Shown in pieces: positions 28,039 to 34,578 of a stretch of DNA of 64,000 bases. Under the pieces are notes generated by a model that made no database searches, was not told the DNA's origin, and saw nothing but the letters and a program-made list of their open reading frames with translations. The stretch spans positions 248,001-312,000 of the forward strand of contig CALJEI010000002.1 of assembly GCA_938074605.1 (NCBI GenBank). The letters run 5' to 3'. Position 1 is the stretch's first letter. The number at the start of each line of letters is the position of its first letter. A program made the position numbers and the translations under genes. This DNA is from an uncultured Ignisphaera sp. (lineage in GTDB: Archaea; Thermoproteota; Thermoprotei_A; Sulfolobales; Ignisphaeraceae).

Positions 28039-28815
28039 ATGATGAAAATGTGGGCTAAGATGAAAAATCTTCAGCTTATCTATGAAGGTAAAAGCAAATA
28101 TGTCTATACTCTAGATGAAGATACTCTCGTGATGGAATTCAAAGACGATGTTACAGCTCTTGATGGAGCAGTTAAAGCTGTTGCCATAGGGAAGGGCATT
28201 ATTGCTGCACAACTTTCTGCATACTTCTTTAAATTTCTCAAAGATAGTAATATTAAATCACATTTCCTAAGCTACGACGGTTGTAGAAGAATCATTGTTA
28301 GAAAACTCGATATAATACCGATTGAGGTTATCATTAGAAATTATGCCTATGGGTCATTGTTAAAGAGAATGCCCTTGTACGAACCGTTGCAGAAGCTAGA
28401 TCCCCCGCTTATAGAGTTTCATTATAAGGATGATACTCTCCACGACCCTTTAGTATTAGAAGAAGATCTAATACATGCAAAAATCTTAGATAAATCTACA
28501 ATCGATGAAATTAAGGAGATGGGCCTAAGGGTAAATGAGTTGTTAACAAGGTTCTTCGAATATAAGAATCTAAGGTTTTTAGATATTAAACTAGAGTTTG
28601 GTAGATCTAAGTCAGGCGAAATCCTTTTAGCTGACGAAATCTCTGGAGATACCTTTAGAGTTCTTGACCAGAACAACAATCATTTAGATAAAGAGATTTT
28701 TAGGAAAACAAAAGATGTTGGGCTTCTCCTTAAAGCATACTTAAGGCTAGCCGAGGTAGTTGGGCTAGATGTCGGAAACATCCTTACATTTTGTGGAAGT
28801 AGTCATAACCAATAA
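28039..28815 (+). CDS. purC: Phosphoribosylaminoimidazole-succinocarboxamide synthase (PurC)
   Basis: Ligates aspartate to CAIR with ATP to form SAICAR. The N-terminal YEGKSKYVYTLDEDTLVMEFKDDVTA region (YEGKSK), IPIEVIIRNYAYGS (I-I-R-N) and the LADEISGDTFRV segment (LADEISGDT) are characteristic. About 258 residues from ATG 28039, which fits a leaderless start behind the TATA box; ATG at 28042 or 28060 are alternatives and the family usually starts only a few residues before YEGK. It is the first gene of the plus-strand purine operon, and its end overlaps purS. Confidence 0.96.
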   Translation: MMKMWAKMKNLQLIYEGKSKYVYTLDEDTLVMEFKDDVTALDGAVKAVAIGKGIIAAQLSAYFFKFLKDSNIKSHFLSYDGCRRIIVRKLDIIPIEVIIRNYAYGSLLKRMPLYEPLQKLDPPLIEFHYKDDTLHDPLVLEEDLIHAKILDKSTIDEIKEMGLRVNELLTRFFEYKNLRFLDIKLEFGRSKSGEILLADEISGDTFRVLDQNNNHLDKEIFRKTKDVGLLLKAYLRLAEVVGLDVGNILTFCGSSHNQ

Positions 28816-29035
28816 GAAAGGTGTTAAAGACCCAGAGGGAGATACTATCCATAAGCATCTCATACTGAGGAAAGGGTACGCCGAGGTCCTTGGGGTTAGA
28901 ACAGGGAAATACATACTATTTTCAGTAAATGCCAGAAGCGCTGAAGAAGCTGTAAAGAAGGTTAAGGAGATTTGTGAAAAACTTCGGATATACAATCCTA
29001 TTATTCATGATATCGAGGTGAGAATCTCTGCCTAA
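28769..29035 (+). CDS. purS: FGAM synthase subunit PurS
   Basis: Small structural subunit of the three-part formylglycinamidine synthase (PurSQL), 88 residues. The VVITNKKGVKDPEGDTI opening and GKYILFSV middle match PurS. The ATG at 28769 gives a 47-nt overlap with purC. A GTG at 28793, which would start just before the first beta strand, is a plausible alternative, but neither has a convincing SD. The gene ends inside the purQ start region. Confidence 0.9.
   Translation: MSETSLHFVEVVITNKKGVKDPEGDTIHKHLILRKGYAEVLGVRTGKYILFSVNARSAEEAVKKVKEICEKLRIYNPIIHDIEVRISA
29015..29021 (+). promoter_or_regulatory. SD site GAGGTGA that sets a CUG start for purQ
   Basis: Strong SD inside the end of purS, six bases before CTG at 29028-29030. 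No ATG, GTG or TTG lies at suitable spacing in the purQ frame. Confidence 0.75.
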
Positions 29036-29717
29036 AATAGCTGTACTAAAGTTTCCTGGAACTAACTGTGATGAAGATGTACACCACGTTCTAAGAAATA
29101 TTATAGGTCTATATTCAGAGATTGTATTGTACAAAGATTTTTCCCTAAATGATTGGGATGCTTTAATTATCCCTGGAGGTTTTAGCTACGGTGATTGGCT
29201 TAGGGCTGGCGCTATAGCAGCTAGAACCCAAGCTATAGAAAAATTAAAGGATGCAAAAGATATGCACATACCCATCCTGGGGATATGCAATGGGTTTCAG
29301 ATACTCGTAGAGGGAGAACTTCTACCTGGAGCTCTTCTACCAAATGAGAATAGCAAGTTTGTATGTAGATGGATAAAAACATATGTTGAGAAGCCAAGAG
29401 GTCCTTGGCTCTCCCTCGTTGAGGAGAAACAGGAAATAGACATGCCTGTAGCACATGCAGAGGGAAGGTACTATGTAGATGAAGAAACCTATAGAAGTAG
29501 TTTACTGAAATCCCCCATAGTAAGATATGCCCCAGGACACAATCCTAATGGAAGTATATATGATATAGCAGGTGTTGGTTCAGAAGATGGATTAATACTC
29601 GGACTTATGCCCCATCCTGAAAGATCCTCTGAGGATATCTTAGCCCCCCGAGGGTTTAGAGCAAATGGTAAGATTCTATTCGAGAGCCTTGCACATTCCC
29701 TAAAGAAGGGGTGGTGA
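29028..29717 (+). CDS. purQ: FGAM synthase glutaminase subunit PurQ, CUG start
   Basis: Class I glutamine amidotransferase supplying ammonia to PurL. The nucleophile elbow GICNGFQILVE, the substrate motif GGFSYGDWLRAGAIA and the C-terminal HPERS are present. The first canonical in-frame start (TTG 29127) would cut off the indispensable first strand KIAVLKFPGTNCDEDV. The frame runs upstream to CTG at 29028, with a perfect GAGGTGA six bases before it, and then meets TGA two codons further up (TGA GAA TCT CTG). Starting at CTG gives 229 residues, the normal family length, and an 8-nt overlap with purS. I therefore assign CUG as initiator. Confidence 0.92.
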   Translation: MPKIAVLKFPGTNCDEDVHHVLRNIIGLYSEIVLYKDFSLNDWDALIIPGGFSYGDWLRAGAIAARTQAIEKLKDAKDMHIPILGICNGFQILVEGELLPGALLPNENSKFVCRWIKTYVEKPRGPWLSLVEEKQEIDMPVAHAEGRYYVDEETYRSSLLKSPIVRYAPGHNPNGSIYDIAGVGSEDGLILGLMPHPERSSEDILAPRGFRANGKILFESLAHSLKKGW

Positions 29718-29718
29718 A

Positions 29719-31917
29719 ATGCCTCTAACATCTGAAGAAGTTAAAGAAATAAGGAAGATTCTTGGCAGAGAGCCGACCACTGAAGAATTAGCTATGTTTG
29801 AAGCACAGTGGAGTGAACACTGCTCCTATAAAAGTAGTAAACTATTGCTAAAGTTTTTGCCAACCAAAGGTAAACATGTTATCATTGGCCCAGGTAGGGA
29901 TGCTCCTGCCGTTAAGGTTTTCAAAGATTGGATAGTGGTATTTAAGATTGAAAGCCATAATCATCCATCGGCTGTCGATCCATATAATGGAGCAGCCACA
30001 GGGATTGGAGGCATAGTTAGGGATATTCTATCTCTAGGTGCAAAACCAGTAGCACTCCTAGATATGTTATACATGGGTAACACAAGAAACCCACATGCAA
30101 ACTGGCTAATAAGGGGTATAGTGAAGGGTATAAGCGACTATGGTAATAGGATAGGGATTCCAACAGTAGCTGGCGATACATGGTTTGATGAAGTATTTAA
30201 TGTCCAACCTCTTGTAAACGTTGCCTGCGTAGGCATCGCTAAGTCTAATGACATTATTCTTTCATCACCACAACCAGGAGACCTTATCATATTAATGGGG
30301 AATGCCACTGGTAGAGATGGCCTACTAGGTAGTAGCTTTGCCTCTAAACCTCTCTCAGAAGATGTTGATAAAGATATTGGGGCAGTACAGGTAGGGGATC
30401 CACTAACTGAGAAACTGTTGATAGATGCTATACAAATTCTTGTTGCTAAAAAAGCTGTTAGATACATAAAGGATTTAGGGGGAGGTGGATTAACAACAGC
30501 TTTATGCGAAACAGCGGCAGACCATGGGCTAGGAGCTGTAATAAACCTCGAGAAATTGCATACAAGGCAGCATCTGACACCCCTTGAAATACTTGTGTCT
30601 GAGAGTCAGGAGAGGATGCTTATAGTTGTTGATGAGAGTAAGCTTGAATTGGTCGACGAAGTTTTATCTAAGCTAGATGTTCAATATAGTGTTATAGGCT
30701 ATTTCACAAATGATGGATTGATAAAAATTTTCTACAATGGGGCTAAAGTAGCAGAAGTACCTTCAAAAGAGCTTGCGAAACCAAGGCCTATTAGAAGAGC
30801 CTCTATACCACCACTAGAGGCTTTGAAGGGTTTAAAACCTTTCTATCAACTACCTCCTGAACCTGACTATAGAGAAGCAATCATTAAGTTAATTTCATCT
30901 CCTAACATAGCATCTAAGAGATGGATATATGAGCAGTATGACCATGAGGTAGGTGTTAGAACCGTAGTTAAGCCAGGTTTTGGGGATGCAGCTGTTCTGA
31001 GGTTCTTAGACAATAGCTTAAGGGGTATAGCTGTTAAAGGGGATGCCAACCCTAGGTACACAGCTCTAGATCCATTCAATGGTGCAGCAAATGCTGTTGG
31101 AGAATGCTTTAGAAACCTCGTAGCTGTGGGGTCAAAACCTATAGCTATTGTTGACGAGCTTAATGCTGGGAATCCAGAAAAACCTGATCATTTCTGGTAC
31201 TTCGAGATGATGCTCAAAGGAGTTGCCTGGATGGCTGAGGAGCTTAGAGTACCCGTCGTAGGGGGGAAGGTAAGTTTTTATAACGAGGATCACATGGGGA
31301 GACAGATAAAACCTACGACAACCATTGTTGGTGTTGGTAGGGTAGAGGATGTATCGAGGGTTATGACGATGGAATTTAAGGAACACTCCTCCTTAGTAGC
31401 TATTGTAGGTGTTACCTATCCTGAGCTTGGAGGAAGCGAATATCTATATAGAGTCTTCGGCCTTGAGGAAGGTGAGATACCTAAACCTAGACCAGCATCA
31501 GAACTTAGAAATGCTAAGTTCATTCGTAGAGTTATTCGCTTGGGCTATGCTAAAGCTGTTCACGATATTAGCCTAGGAGGCTTAGCCATTGCATTAATTG
31601 AGATGGCTGTAGCAGGAAGAATAGGTGTTGAAGTAGATATCTCAAAGGTGTATACGAGAGGGGTTCAGAGATTAGATGAGGTTATTTTCTCAGAAACCCA
31701 GGCGAGGTATGTTGTAGAAATCGATAGTAGGTATGTTGATGATTTTAAACATTTAGCCGAGAGAATGGGTGTAAACATAAGCATAATTGGTAGAGTAGCT
31801 GATTCAAATCAAATTGTATTCTCTTTTGGGCCAAATAATTTAGTTAATCTAGATCTCTTCACAGTAGTTGATATATACAATAGTATTCTAGAGAAAGAGG
31901 TAGAGGGTGAAGTATAG
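29719..31917 (+). CDS. purL: FGAM synthase large subunit PurL
   Basis: ATP-dependent synthase subunit of 732 residues, the short form that needs PurS and PurQ. It contains WSEHCSYKSSK near residue 30, ESHNHPSAVDPYNGAATGIGG near residue 85, and the duplicated AIRS-type halves ending in a second GGLAIALIEMA region. ATG at 29719 is preceded by GGTGGTGA and starts 1 nt after purQ ends. Product FGAM is the substrate of PurM encoded further down the operon. Confidence 0.98.
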   Translation: MPLTSEEVKEIRKILGREPTTEELAMFEAQWSEHCSYKSSKLLLKFLPTKGKHVIIGPGRDAPAVKVFKDWIVVFKIESHNHPSAVDPYNGAATGIGGIVRDILSLGAKPVALLDMLYMGNTRNPHANWLIRGIVKGISDYGNRIGIPTVAGDTWFDEVFNVQPLVNVACVGIAKSNDIILSSPQPGDLIILMGNATGRDGLLGSSFASKPLSEDVDKDIGAVQVGDPLTEKLLIDAIQILVAKKAVRYIKDLGGGGLTTALCETAADHGLGAVINLEKLHTRQHLTPLEILVSESQERMLIVVDESKLELVDEVLSKLDVQYSVIGYFTNDGLIKIFYNGAKVAEVPSKELAKPRPIRRASIPPLEALKGLKPFYQLPPEPDYREAIIKLISSPNIASKRWIYEQYDHEVGVRTVVKPGFGDAAVLRFLDNSLRGIAVKGDANPRYTALDPFNGAANAVGECFRNLVAVGSKPIAIVDELNAGNPEKPDHFWYFEMMLKGVAWMAEELRVPVVGGKVSFYNEDHMGRQIKPTTTIVGVGRVEDVSRVMTMEFKEHSSLVAIVGVTYPELGGSEYLYRVFGLEEGEIPKPRPASELRNAKFIRRVIRLGYAKAVHDISLGGLAIALIEMAVAGRIGVEVDISKVYTRGVQRLDEVIFSETQARYVVEIDSRYVDDFKHLAERMGVNISIIGRVADSNQIVFSFGPNNLVNLDLFTVVDIYNSILEKEVEGEV

Positions 31918-33303
31918 ATGTGTGGAATAGCGGGGTACATAGGTTCTAGCGATGCTGTGTCAATGATAATCTCTCTCCTCCTAGAGTTACAACATAGAGG
32001 GCAGGAGGCTAGTGGTTTAGCTATAGCATTGAACAGAGGATCCATAAGTGTAATCCATAGCAAAGGACTCATATCCGATGTATTCAACGGTAAGCTAAAT
32101 GATGAACCATCTAGGGATAACAATGTATTTGGTGGTATTGGACATGTTAGATATTCTACATCGGGTGGATACATGAACTCAGAGGTTCAACCCATTGTTT
32201 TAGGAGACAACAATTTTAAAATAGCTATAGCTTTTAATGGCACTATAGCTAACTATGATAGCTTAGCAAAAGAATTTGATATAAAGAGGGTGAGCTGTGA
32301 TACTATAGTTCTTGCTGAGTTAATATATAGGCTTGCTAGAGAAGCAGGCAACGACGTAGTTGAAGCTTTAAAGATCTTACCAAACTATGTTGTTGGAGGT
32401 TATAGCATAGCCATTCTAACATCTGAACCAAGGGTTGCTATCGCTCGTGACCCCTACGGGTTTAGGCCATTAGCAATAAGTTATATAGGTGAGGAATTTC
32501 TTTTCTCCTCCGAGACCGCAGCTCTTGAAACTCTAGGCTTTAGCTCATGGAAAGAAGTTTTACCTGGAGAAATAATTTCTTTCAATGGATCATCACTAGA
32601 GTCAACAAAAACATCGGTATCCGTTCCTATATCTCCATGTGTCTTTGAGTATGTATATTTTTCGCGTCCAGACTCTGTATTCAATGGTGTTAGTGTTTAT
32701 ATAGCTAGAGTTAAAATGGGTGAAGAACTTGCCTCTAAAGCTCCAGCCAACTGTGATATAGTCATACCTGTACCTGATAGCGGTAGAGCTGCTGCAATAG
32801 GATTTAGTAGAGCATCTGGTAAACCAATTGATGAAGGTATCTATGCCAATAAATACGTTGGAAGAGGCTTTATTGCCCCTCCTATGATAAGGGATACTAT
32901 TTCTAAGCTTAAGTATGGTTTTGTTAAAAGCATTATAAGTGGAAGGAAAATTGCCTTAGTAGATGATTCCATTGTACGTGGAACGACTTTGAAAAGTATT
33001 ATAAAAAGACTTAAGCATGCTGGGGCTAAAGAAGTTCATGTAAGGGTTGCTAGCCCACCATTCAAATACCCTTGCTTCATGGGTGTAGATGTTACATCAA
33101 GAGAAGAGCTCCTTGCATGGAGAATGGCAAGCATAGATGATATTGCTAGATCTCTAGAGGCTGATAGCATTGGATATAATACAGTTGAGGGTCTTCGAAA
33201 AGCAGTTGGTATACCATCAATATGTAGTGCATGTTTTACAGGTTTATACCCATTTCAAGGTATTGACATAGAAGATCTTGAAAATATGTTTATTAGGTGG
33301 TAA
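31918..33303 (+). CDS. purF: Amidophosphoribosyltransferase (PurF)
   Basis: Committed step of purine synthesis: PRPP plus glutamine to phosphoribosylamine. Cys2 after the initiator Met (MCGIAGYIG) is the N-terminal nucleophile after Met removal. IGHVRYSTSG and QHRGQEASG are the glutamine-binding motifs, and ALVDDSIVRGTTLKS is the PRPP loop. Cysteines in ISPCVF, YPCFMG and SICSACF occupy the positions of the [4Fe-4S] ligands of the B. subtilis-type enzyme. 461 residues. It abuts purL directly and has a GGGTGAAG SD. Confidence 0.97.
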   Translation: MCGIAGYIGSSDAVSMIISLLLELQHRGQEASGLAIALNRGSISVIHSKGLISDVFNGKLNDEPSRDNNVFGGIGHVRYSTSGGYMNSEVQPIVLGDNNFKIAIAFNGTIANYDSLAKEFDIKRVSCDTIVLAELIYRLAREAGNDVVEALKILPNYVVGGYSIAILTSEPRVAIARDPYGFRPLAISYIGEEFLFSSETAALETLGFSSWKEVLPGEIISFNGSSLESTKTSVSVPISPCVFEYVYFSRPDSVFNGVSVYIARVKMGEELASKAPANCDIVIPVPDSGRAAAIGFSRASGKPIDEGIYANKYVGRGFIAPPMIRDTISKLKYGFVKSIISGRKIALVDDSIVRGTTLKSIIKRLKHAGAKEVHVRVASPPFKYPCFMGVDVTSREELLAWRMASIDDIARSLEADSIGYNTVEGLRKAVGIPSICSACFTGLYPFQGIDIEDLENMFIRW

Positions 33304-33306
33304 ACT

Positions 33307-34578
33307 ATGAGTGGATTACTTACTGTATATGCATTTGATGAACTTTGGAGTCTACCAAATATCGTTAGATATGGGTTAATAGCTTTACAGCATAGAGGGT
33401 CACAAAAATATGTTATTTGTTTACCTAGCAATGGTGTTAAGTGTATAGAGGGAGAAGATATAGAGATATCAAATTATGCTATAGATCATTTAGCAGTGTT
33501 AGCTAGTTATAGTGATAAAGAAGATAACATATTCTATGTAGAGTCAGATAATGATAAGAGTATTGCTGTTATTGCTGAAAGATCTTGGAGTAAAATATAT
33601 GAATTCACACATGAACTTTTAAATGAGATGAAAAAAGGTGAAAGTAGTTTAGAAGCATTTAAAACTACGATACTAGCCTTCAATAAAGAATTTGATGAAG
33701 CCATCCCGTCACTTCAGATAATTACAAACTTTAGAGAGGTTATCGCTTGGCGGAATTTCCACGGGCTTACACCACTTGTTCTAGGTAGCTATGGCTTTGA
33801 TATGGCTATAGTATCCTCTGAGTCAATAGCTGTAGATATTCTTGGGGGGGATGTAAAGAAGTTTTTAGGCCCTGGCGAAGGACTCTACATGTCGAGGTAC
33901 TTAACTAAGTCTTTTTTAATAGATAAATATATTGATTGTGGTCTATGTCTCTTTGAGATGCTGTATTTAGCGAGACACGATGCTATTATCAATGGTGTAA
34001 GTGTTTATGAGTTTAGAAAAGCCATCGGTAAGGAGCTGGCTCAGTATCTTGATAAGGAGGTAGACATAGTAGTTGGTGTACCTGAAACGGCTTTACCATA
34101 TGCTATTGGGTTTGCACAAAAAATTGGTAAACCCTTTGAATTAGCCTTTGTAGCAACAGGTGGTAGAAGAAGATCTATGTTGCTTGGAGATCCTTTTGAA
34201 AAAATGGTAGCTATACATCTTAAGATGAATCCCATTAAATCAATTTTAGAGGGTAAAAGGATTGCTCTGATAGATGACAGCATGGTTACTGGAGCGACGC
34301 TAAAAACAGTTTCACAAATCCTAAGGTTTAGAATTGGTGTTAGGGAGCTACATTTATTTATAGCTTCACCACCCCTTGCATCGATTTGTCCATTCATGGT
34401 AATGAAGCTCGATGTCCAAAATCTATTAGCTGCTAATCTATCAAATGATTTAGCTAAAAGCTATCTAGAAGTAGATTCCCTTCACTGGCTCTCTAAAGAT
34501 AATGTAAATCAAGTTGCTAAGAGGTTTAGTTTAAAATTCTGTGGTAAATGCTTTGGGGTAGATTTCTTTGGTGGGTGA
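33307..34578 (+). CDS. PurF paralogue lacking the catalytic cysteine
   Basis: Protein of 423 residues, clearly a duplicate of PurF (RYGLIALQHRGSQ, FLGPGEGLYMS, ALIDDSMVTGATLKT, terminal FCGKCFG) but starting MSG instead of MCG. The glutamine-hydrolysing nucleophile is therefore replaced by serine, and the HVRYST motif is absent. The phosphoribosyltransferase half keeps the acidic DDS PRPP loop with changes (T-G-A-T instead of R-G-T-T), and several of the cluster cysteines remain. It lies 3 nt after purF and before purD. It is likely a non-glutaminase partner of PurF or an ammonia-using or regulatory PRTase (inference). Similar second copies exist in some other Crenarchaea as I recall. Confidence 0.88.
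   Translation: MSGLLTVYAFDELWSLPNIVRYGLIALQHRGSQKYVICLPSNGVKCIEGEDIEISNYAIDHLAVLASYSDKEDNIFYVESDNDKSIAVIAERSWSKIYEFTHELLNEMKKGESSLEAFKTTILAFNKEFDEAIPSLQIITNFREVIAWRNFHGLTPLVLGSYGFDMAIVSSESIAVDILGGDVKKFLGPGEGLYMSRYLTKSFLIDKYIDCGLCLFEMLYLARHDAIINGVSVYEFRKAIGKELAQYLDKEVDIVVGVPETALPYAIGFAQKIGKPFELAFVATGGRRRSMLLGDPFEKMVAIHLKMNPIKSILEGKRIALIDDSMVTGATLKTVSQILRFRIGVRELHLFIASPPLASICPFMVMKLDVQNLLAANLSNDLAKSYLEVDSLHWLSKDNVNQVAKRFSLKFCGKCFGVDFFGG

Follow-up and report, generated by a model that had tools for sequence, protein, structure and literature searches.

Position of the purQ start codon

The purQ gene of the window, by which we mean the whole 64,000-nucleotide stretch of Ignisphaera DNA analysed here, raises a simple question: at which codon does its translation start? 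The sequence-only reading had claimed that the frame lacks a canonical start codon at the N-terminus, that a CTG inside the 3′ end of purS follows a perfect Shine-Dalgarno (SD) sequence, GAGGTGA, by six bases, and that the codons before this CTG are TCT, GAA and a stop TGA. The bases agree on each point. Between the in-frame stop (29019-29021) and a TTG at 29127-29129, no ATG, GTG or TTG occurs in the purQ frame of the forward strand, and this first canonical codon lies 33 codons into the conserved protein. The CTG (29028-29030) is in frame with the N-terminal PKIAVLKFPGTNCDED and the rest of PurQ. Read from this codon, purQ (29028-29717, forward strand) begins LPKIAVLKFPGTNCDEDVHH, comprises 229 codons including the start and runs to the stop codon at 29715-29717.

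The SD sequence (29015-29021, forward strand) is separated from the CTG by the six nucleotides GAATCT and pairs over 7 nt, without mismatch, with the 16S rRNA tail of the same genome, GGATCACCTCC. It is embedded in the purS codons GAG GTG AGA, and its last three nucleotides form the upstream stop TGA, which begins 9 nt before the CTG. From the codon use of the window's genome (G000), the purS Glu-Val-Arg would be spelled GAG GTG AGR by chance in 4.3% of cases, and CTG represents 0.42% of interior codons. A gap of 6 nt is the commonest one for ATG codons preceded by an SD run of at least 6 (25/70, in four stretches of 400 kb from the genus). Three of the features that SD-led initiation at a near-cognate codon would call for are found at purQ: an SD complementary to the 16S tail at normal spacing, no canonical codon at the conserved N-terminus, and a codon one base off AUG at a column where relatives carry canonical starts.

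The identity of the protein and the extent of its N-terminus were evaluated by family searches. PurQ (phosphoribosylformylglycinamidine synthase I) scored 246.8 bits against NCBIfam TIGR01737 (cut-off 177.8; E value 1.7e-73) and 251.9 bits against NF002957 (cut-off 212), and the matches cover nearly the full length (residues 3-223 and 3-225, respectively). Furthermore, an alignment with the PurQ chain 3d54_D, from T. maritima, pairs residues 2-226 of the window's protein with residues 3-212 of that chain. Because this alignment begins at residue 2, the CTG gives a normal PurQ N-terminus, while the use of TTG 29127 would remove 33 conserved residues; the earlier claim of a normal-length protein is thereby upheld.

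The purC-purS-purQ-purL genes are tightly packed. The ATG of purS (28769-29035, forward strand; TIGR00302) lies inside the end of purC, giving an overlap of 47 nt (28769-28815), and its stop codon TAA (29033-29035) falls within purQ, giving an overlap of 8 nt (29028-29035). purL (29719-31917, forward strand) starts with ATG. In both purS and purL, used as controls, canonical start codons are available at the N-terminus in 11/11 genomes of the genus. Two PurF-like genes follow in tandem in the window (31918-33303 and 33307-34578). The cysteine that follows the initiator methionine of PurF is catalytic; the first of the two proteins begins MCGIAG, and the second begins MSGLLT, without the usual cysteine at this place.

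The purQ start column in related genomes

Sixty genomes were searched for PurQ; 30 gave any match and 26 a PurQ locus, of which one (L026) was left out of the column counts on account of its unclear start, so that the counts refer to 25 loci. An alignment of related species, which the sequence-only reading had proposed as a check, showed the same CTG in a second Ignisphaera genome (G009) and ATG, GTG, ATA or ACG at the homologous column of its neighbours. A PurQ locus is present in each of the 11 genus genomes, and in five of them this column holds a near-cognate codon: CTG in G000 and G009, ATA in G004 and G007, and ACG in G008. The others have GTG (G001, G002, G003, G010) or ATG (G005, G006). 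In other genera of the same taxonomic family the column holds ATA in G011 and GTG in G013. Three genomes of family f6 have ATC one codon later, where the SD, GGAGGTGA, has moved along and the gap is again 6. In family f11, ACG stands at gap 6 in G027, and three further genomes have GTG or TTG. Altogether, near-cognate codons occupy the column in 10/25 loci (CTG 2, ATA 3, ACG 2, ATC 3), and ATG, GTG or TTG in 15/25.

The gap between the best-scoring SD and the start is 6 in 24 of the 25 loci. The purS/purQ overlap is 8 nt in 11/11 genus genomes and 20-38 nt in some other genomes. Since the overlap length varies outside the genus and the gap stays at 6, what is kept constant seems to be the SD. 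The ten near-cognate starts all have a gap of exactly 6 and are preceded by SD runs of 5 (one case), 7 (six) or 8 (three), with a mean of 7.1; the fifteen canonical starts have runs of 2 to 8 (mean 5.3), a comparison that is fair for purQ within the genus, the column being set by alignment. The two species of the genus with ATG have a purQ SD run of only 3. On a 13-tip tree built from five proteins (two outgroup rows from PurQ alone), with 4 of 10 inner branches well supported, the near-cognate or canonical state changed at least five times and the codon itself at least seven times.

These observations bear on a further suggestion, that coupling, by helping a weak codon, may keep PurQ in stoichiometry with PurS and PurL. 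The comparison gives no support to a special stoichiometric role of the weak codon: in sister species the purQ column holds ATG behind a weaker SD, and near-cognate codons are also seen at the starts of unrelated genes such as those for ValRS and a Rio2-like kinase.

Candidate near-cognate starts in other genes

We then surveyed 793 ortholog-tested genes in four stretches of 400 kb (204 genes from G000, 217 from G006, 249 from G007 and 123 from G009). In 68/793 genes, homology extended upstream beyond the first canonical start by at least five codons, and in 23 of these 68 an SD run of at least 5 placed a codon at a gap of 5-7 before any canonical start. Near-cognates account for 12 of the 23 SD-placed codons, where the background share would be 17.7% (p = 2e-4), and CTG, ACG or ATA for nine, where it would be 7.2% (p = 2e-5); in both tests the rows are not independent, purQ being counted three times and ValRS twice. 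At a gap of exactly 6, 11/14 SD-placed codons are near-cognate, by a hand count of the survey rows. When AAG and AGG are left out, the cases amount to 10/793 genes, or about 1%; since short overhangs escape the survey, this figure is a minimum.

The same variation among the 11 genus genomes was found in genes whose names reflect our reading of their sequences and not family searches. At the predicted start, ValRS has ATA in five genomes, ATT in one, ATA directly before ATG in one, and ATG in four. For the Rio2-like kinase the codons are ACG (5), CTG (1), GTG (2), TTG (1) and ATG (2), and for an XPF-like nuclease ATA (2) and ATG (9). A CysK/ThrC-like enzyme, present in 10 of the 11 genomes, has CTG in one, CTG with an ATG two codons on in another, ACG in two, GTG in four and TTG in one; the remaining start is unclear and was left out of the SD comparison. 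That comparison is biased outside purQ, those cases having been found partly by their SD. In several of the ValRS, Rio2-like and CysK-like cases, a canonical codon (ATG, GTG or TTG) stands in frame only a few codons away. In the ValRS genes of G004 and G010 an in-frame ATG overlaps the SD, in the Rio2-like gene of G005 an in-frame TTG lies upstream, and in some cases of G006 and G007 an in-frame GTG or ATG lies 4-5 codons inside. purQ is the cleanest near-cognate case.

Two further counts define how rare such starts are. When the homology filter was dropped, a looser tally gave no enrichment, near-cognates forming 18/83 of the non-canonical SD-placed codons, which is about background. When the start columns of canonical SD-led orthologs (236 genes) were mapped and the SD was kept, 67 codons were canonical, 3 near-cognate and 8 other, and only the XPF-like case among the three is clean. 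By these counts, near-cognate starts are a small minority and rare per gene. The best reading of the survey is that they would be tolerated at about 1% of genes, the CUG of purQ being real but not special to this gene.

Two other frames drew attention in the same genomes. An ABC-transporter-like frame of G007 (269185-270199, reverse strand of the joined stretch L101-L120) runs for 63 codons before any canonical start and carries GGTGG-TTATCC-ACG near its beginning, possibly a further ACG start. A CimA/LeuA-like gene (L238-L247; for instance G000:C2:154721-155914, minus strand, outside the window) is without a usable canonical start in 8/10 genomes. It has a conserved in-frame GTG GTY TAG AAA, in which the AAA, five bases after GGTGG, is invariant in 10/10 genomes; in G009 and G001, AAG and CAA replace the TAG. 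Candidate readings are initiation at AAA, readthrough of the UAG or recoding of another kind. The gene, with its AAA after an in-frame UAG in 8/10 genomes, is perhaps an even more extreme start case.

The initiation machinery

The gene for aIF1 (SUI1) is present in 11/11 genomes of the genus, which rules out its loss as a cause of relaxed starts. A tRNA search of the window's genome gave 48 matches, and one initiator-like gene, with anticodon CAU, was found among the loci examined; no second initiator tRNA was seen among them. The T arm of this initiator tRNA-like gene (L315, G000:C16:14820-14885, minus strand; loop CTCATAA) seems to be interrupted by an insertion that is probably an intron. 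The genome also has two tRNA-Gln(CTG) genes (L309 and L310, G000:C10:63566-63638 and 82721-82793), identical apart from the called end, and a further tRNA gene lies a few bases after the second. In the available part of a study on Pyrococcus abyssi, the arrest signals of 30S-mRNA-aIF1 complexes depend mainly on the strength of the SD, with at most a marginal effect of AUG (PMC6237735). Such SD-dependent arrest signals fit starts at near-cognate codons placed by an SD.

Alternative explanations

Several rival explanations of the missing canonical start were weighed. Relative to purS, the purQ frame is displaced by +1, and the SD stands just upstream of the purS stop, an arrangement that loosely resembles RF2 frameshifting; ribosomes shifting by +1 near this stop would produce a PurS-PurQ fusion for which no start codon is needed. 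Such an event requires no near-cognate codon, yet all the non-canonical codons at the column are near-cognates, and 15/25 relatives have an ordinary start there. Moreover, a conserved shift site was not found at the purS stop, which ends at +8, +20, +35 or +38 from the purQ start with varying codon and context, against an SD gap fixed at 6 in 24/25 loci. We consider the frameshift very improbable, and give no more credit to a functional, shortened PurQ made from an internal canonical codon. TTG 29127 does open a frame of 196 amino acids, but the 33 residues lost would be those that align with relatives and, from residue 2, with 3d54_D, and it is the upstream site that has the SD and the upstream column that carries the ATG or GTG of the relatives.

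Still less probable is an error of sequencing or assembly that hides an ATG, GTG or TTG. The window's genome is in 17 contigs and a single wrong base at 29028 would suffice; nevertheless, ATA, ACG and ATC occur at the purQ start of other independent genomes, and the CTG recurs in G009, a single contig that we take as the finished chromosome of Ignisphaera aggregans. For that chromosome the available part of the genome report gives an error rate below 1 in 100,000 (PMC3035270). The least probable explanation, in our view, is that the transcript is edited or that the codon is read by a second initiator tRNA of different anticodon. By C-to-U editing, ACG would become AUG and CUG would become UUG. 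Changes of this kind are known from plastids, but no change at a C could convert the AUA or AUC starts to AUG, GUG or UUG, and among the loci examined from the 48 tRNA matches there was a single initiator-like gene, with CAU.

A model for purQ initiation

We conclude that purQ is very probably translated from CUG 29028 by SD-directed initiation, with the ordinary initiator Met-tRNA on a near-cognate codon, and that it is one case of a habit of the lineage. Directly visible in the DNA are the lack of a canonical start, the SD with its gap, the homologous column with the codons of the relatives, the CAU tRNA and the aIF1 gene. From these, initiation by the ribosome at CUG 29028 is the most likely event. 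The perfect SD, at the commonest gap of 6 nt, would place the 30S subunit on purQ, and the initiator tRNA (CAU) would accept CUG by pairing with two of its three bases, the strong SD compensating for the weak codon. PurQ would then begin Met-Pro-Lys-Ile-Ala-Val, methionine presumably being inserted at the CUG. The start and stop codons of purQ and purS overlap by a few bases, as is expected of translational coupling by overlapping cistrons. Ribosomes terminating purS a few bases on may therefore aid initiation at purQ, as in ordinary overlapping cistrons, and coupling of purQ to purS is plausible from this arrangement.

The wider habit in Ignisphaera would be that a strong, well-placed SD lets CUG, ACG, AUA, AUU or AUC serve as starts, which are gained and lost over time. 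With somewhat better than even confidence, we propose that in this lineage, to which three genomes of another family add AUC at purQ, spacing from a strong SD is the main determinant of start-codon choice, so that these codons start essential genes (ValRS, the Rio2-like kinase, PurQ) and repeatedly replace AUG or GUG; gene callers restricted to ATG, GTG and TTG would mis-start such genes. If this is true, some Crenarchaeota discriminate between start codons far less strictly than annotation presumes, and gene finders with that restriction would truncate or drop conserved enzymes begun at CUG, AUA, ACG or AUC. Judged by their sequences, the start codons of this lineage look unusually relaxed.

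Comparison with known systems

In E. coli, infC starts at the near-cognate AUU behind an SD, is essential and is autoregulated by IF3. The purQ gene resembles it in combining a near-cognate codon with an SD and differs in that no autoregulatory loop is suggested. In the open-licence literature searched, which gave partial coverage, we found no crenarchaeal start at a near-cognate codon described, be it AUA, ACG or AUC. The available part of a review on archaeal initiation names only three start codons, AUG, GUG and UUG; it contains none of the terms near-cognate, non-AUG, CUG and AUA (PMC7531240). purQ would be like the SD-led GUG and UUG starts described there in its SD, spacing, Met-tRNAi and position in the operon, and would differ from them in the codon, which is CUG, AUA, ACG or AUC (PMC7531240).

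CUG starts are already known in archaea: in the accessible text of a Ribo-seq study on Methanosarcina mazei, they make up 5% of the unannotated small ORFs (PMC11456600). Both M. mazei and the species of the window would thus be archaea using CUG, predicted from sequence in the present case; the M. mazei starts belong to small ORFs, whereas the gene here encodes a conserved metabolic enzyme whose relatives carry AUA, ACG or AUC (PMC11456600). Among closely related prokaryotes, weaker start codons are paired with stronger SD sequences and switches to CUG or AUU are rare, according to the part of Belinky et al. (2017) available to us (PMC5622118). The same tie between a weaker codon and a stronger SD appears at purQ. 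Their count, in that part, is 2 switches from AUG to CUG among 61,358 ancestral AUG starts, whereas purQ alone would have undergone at least seven codon changes on 13 tips (PMC5622118).
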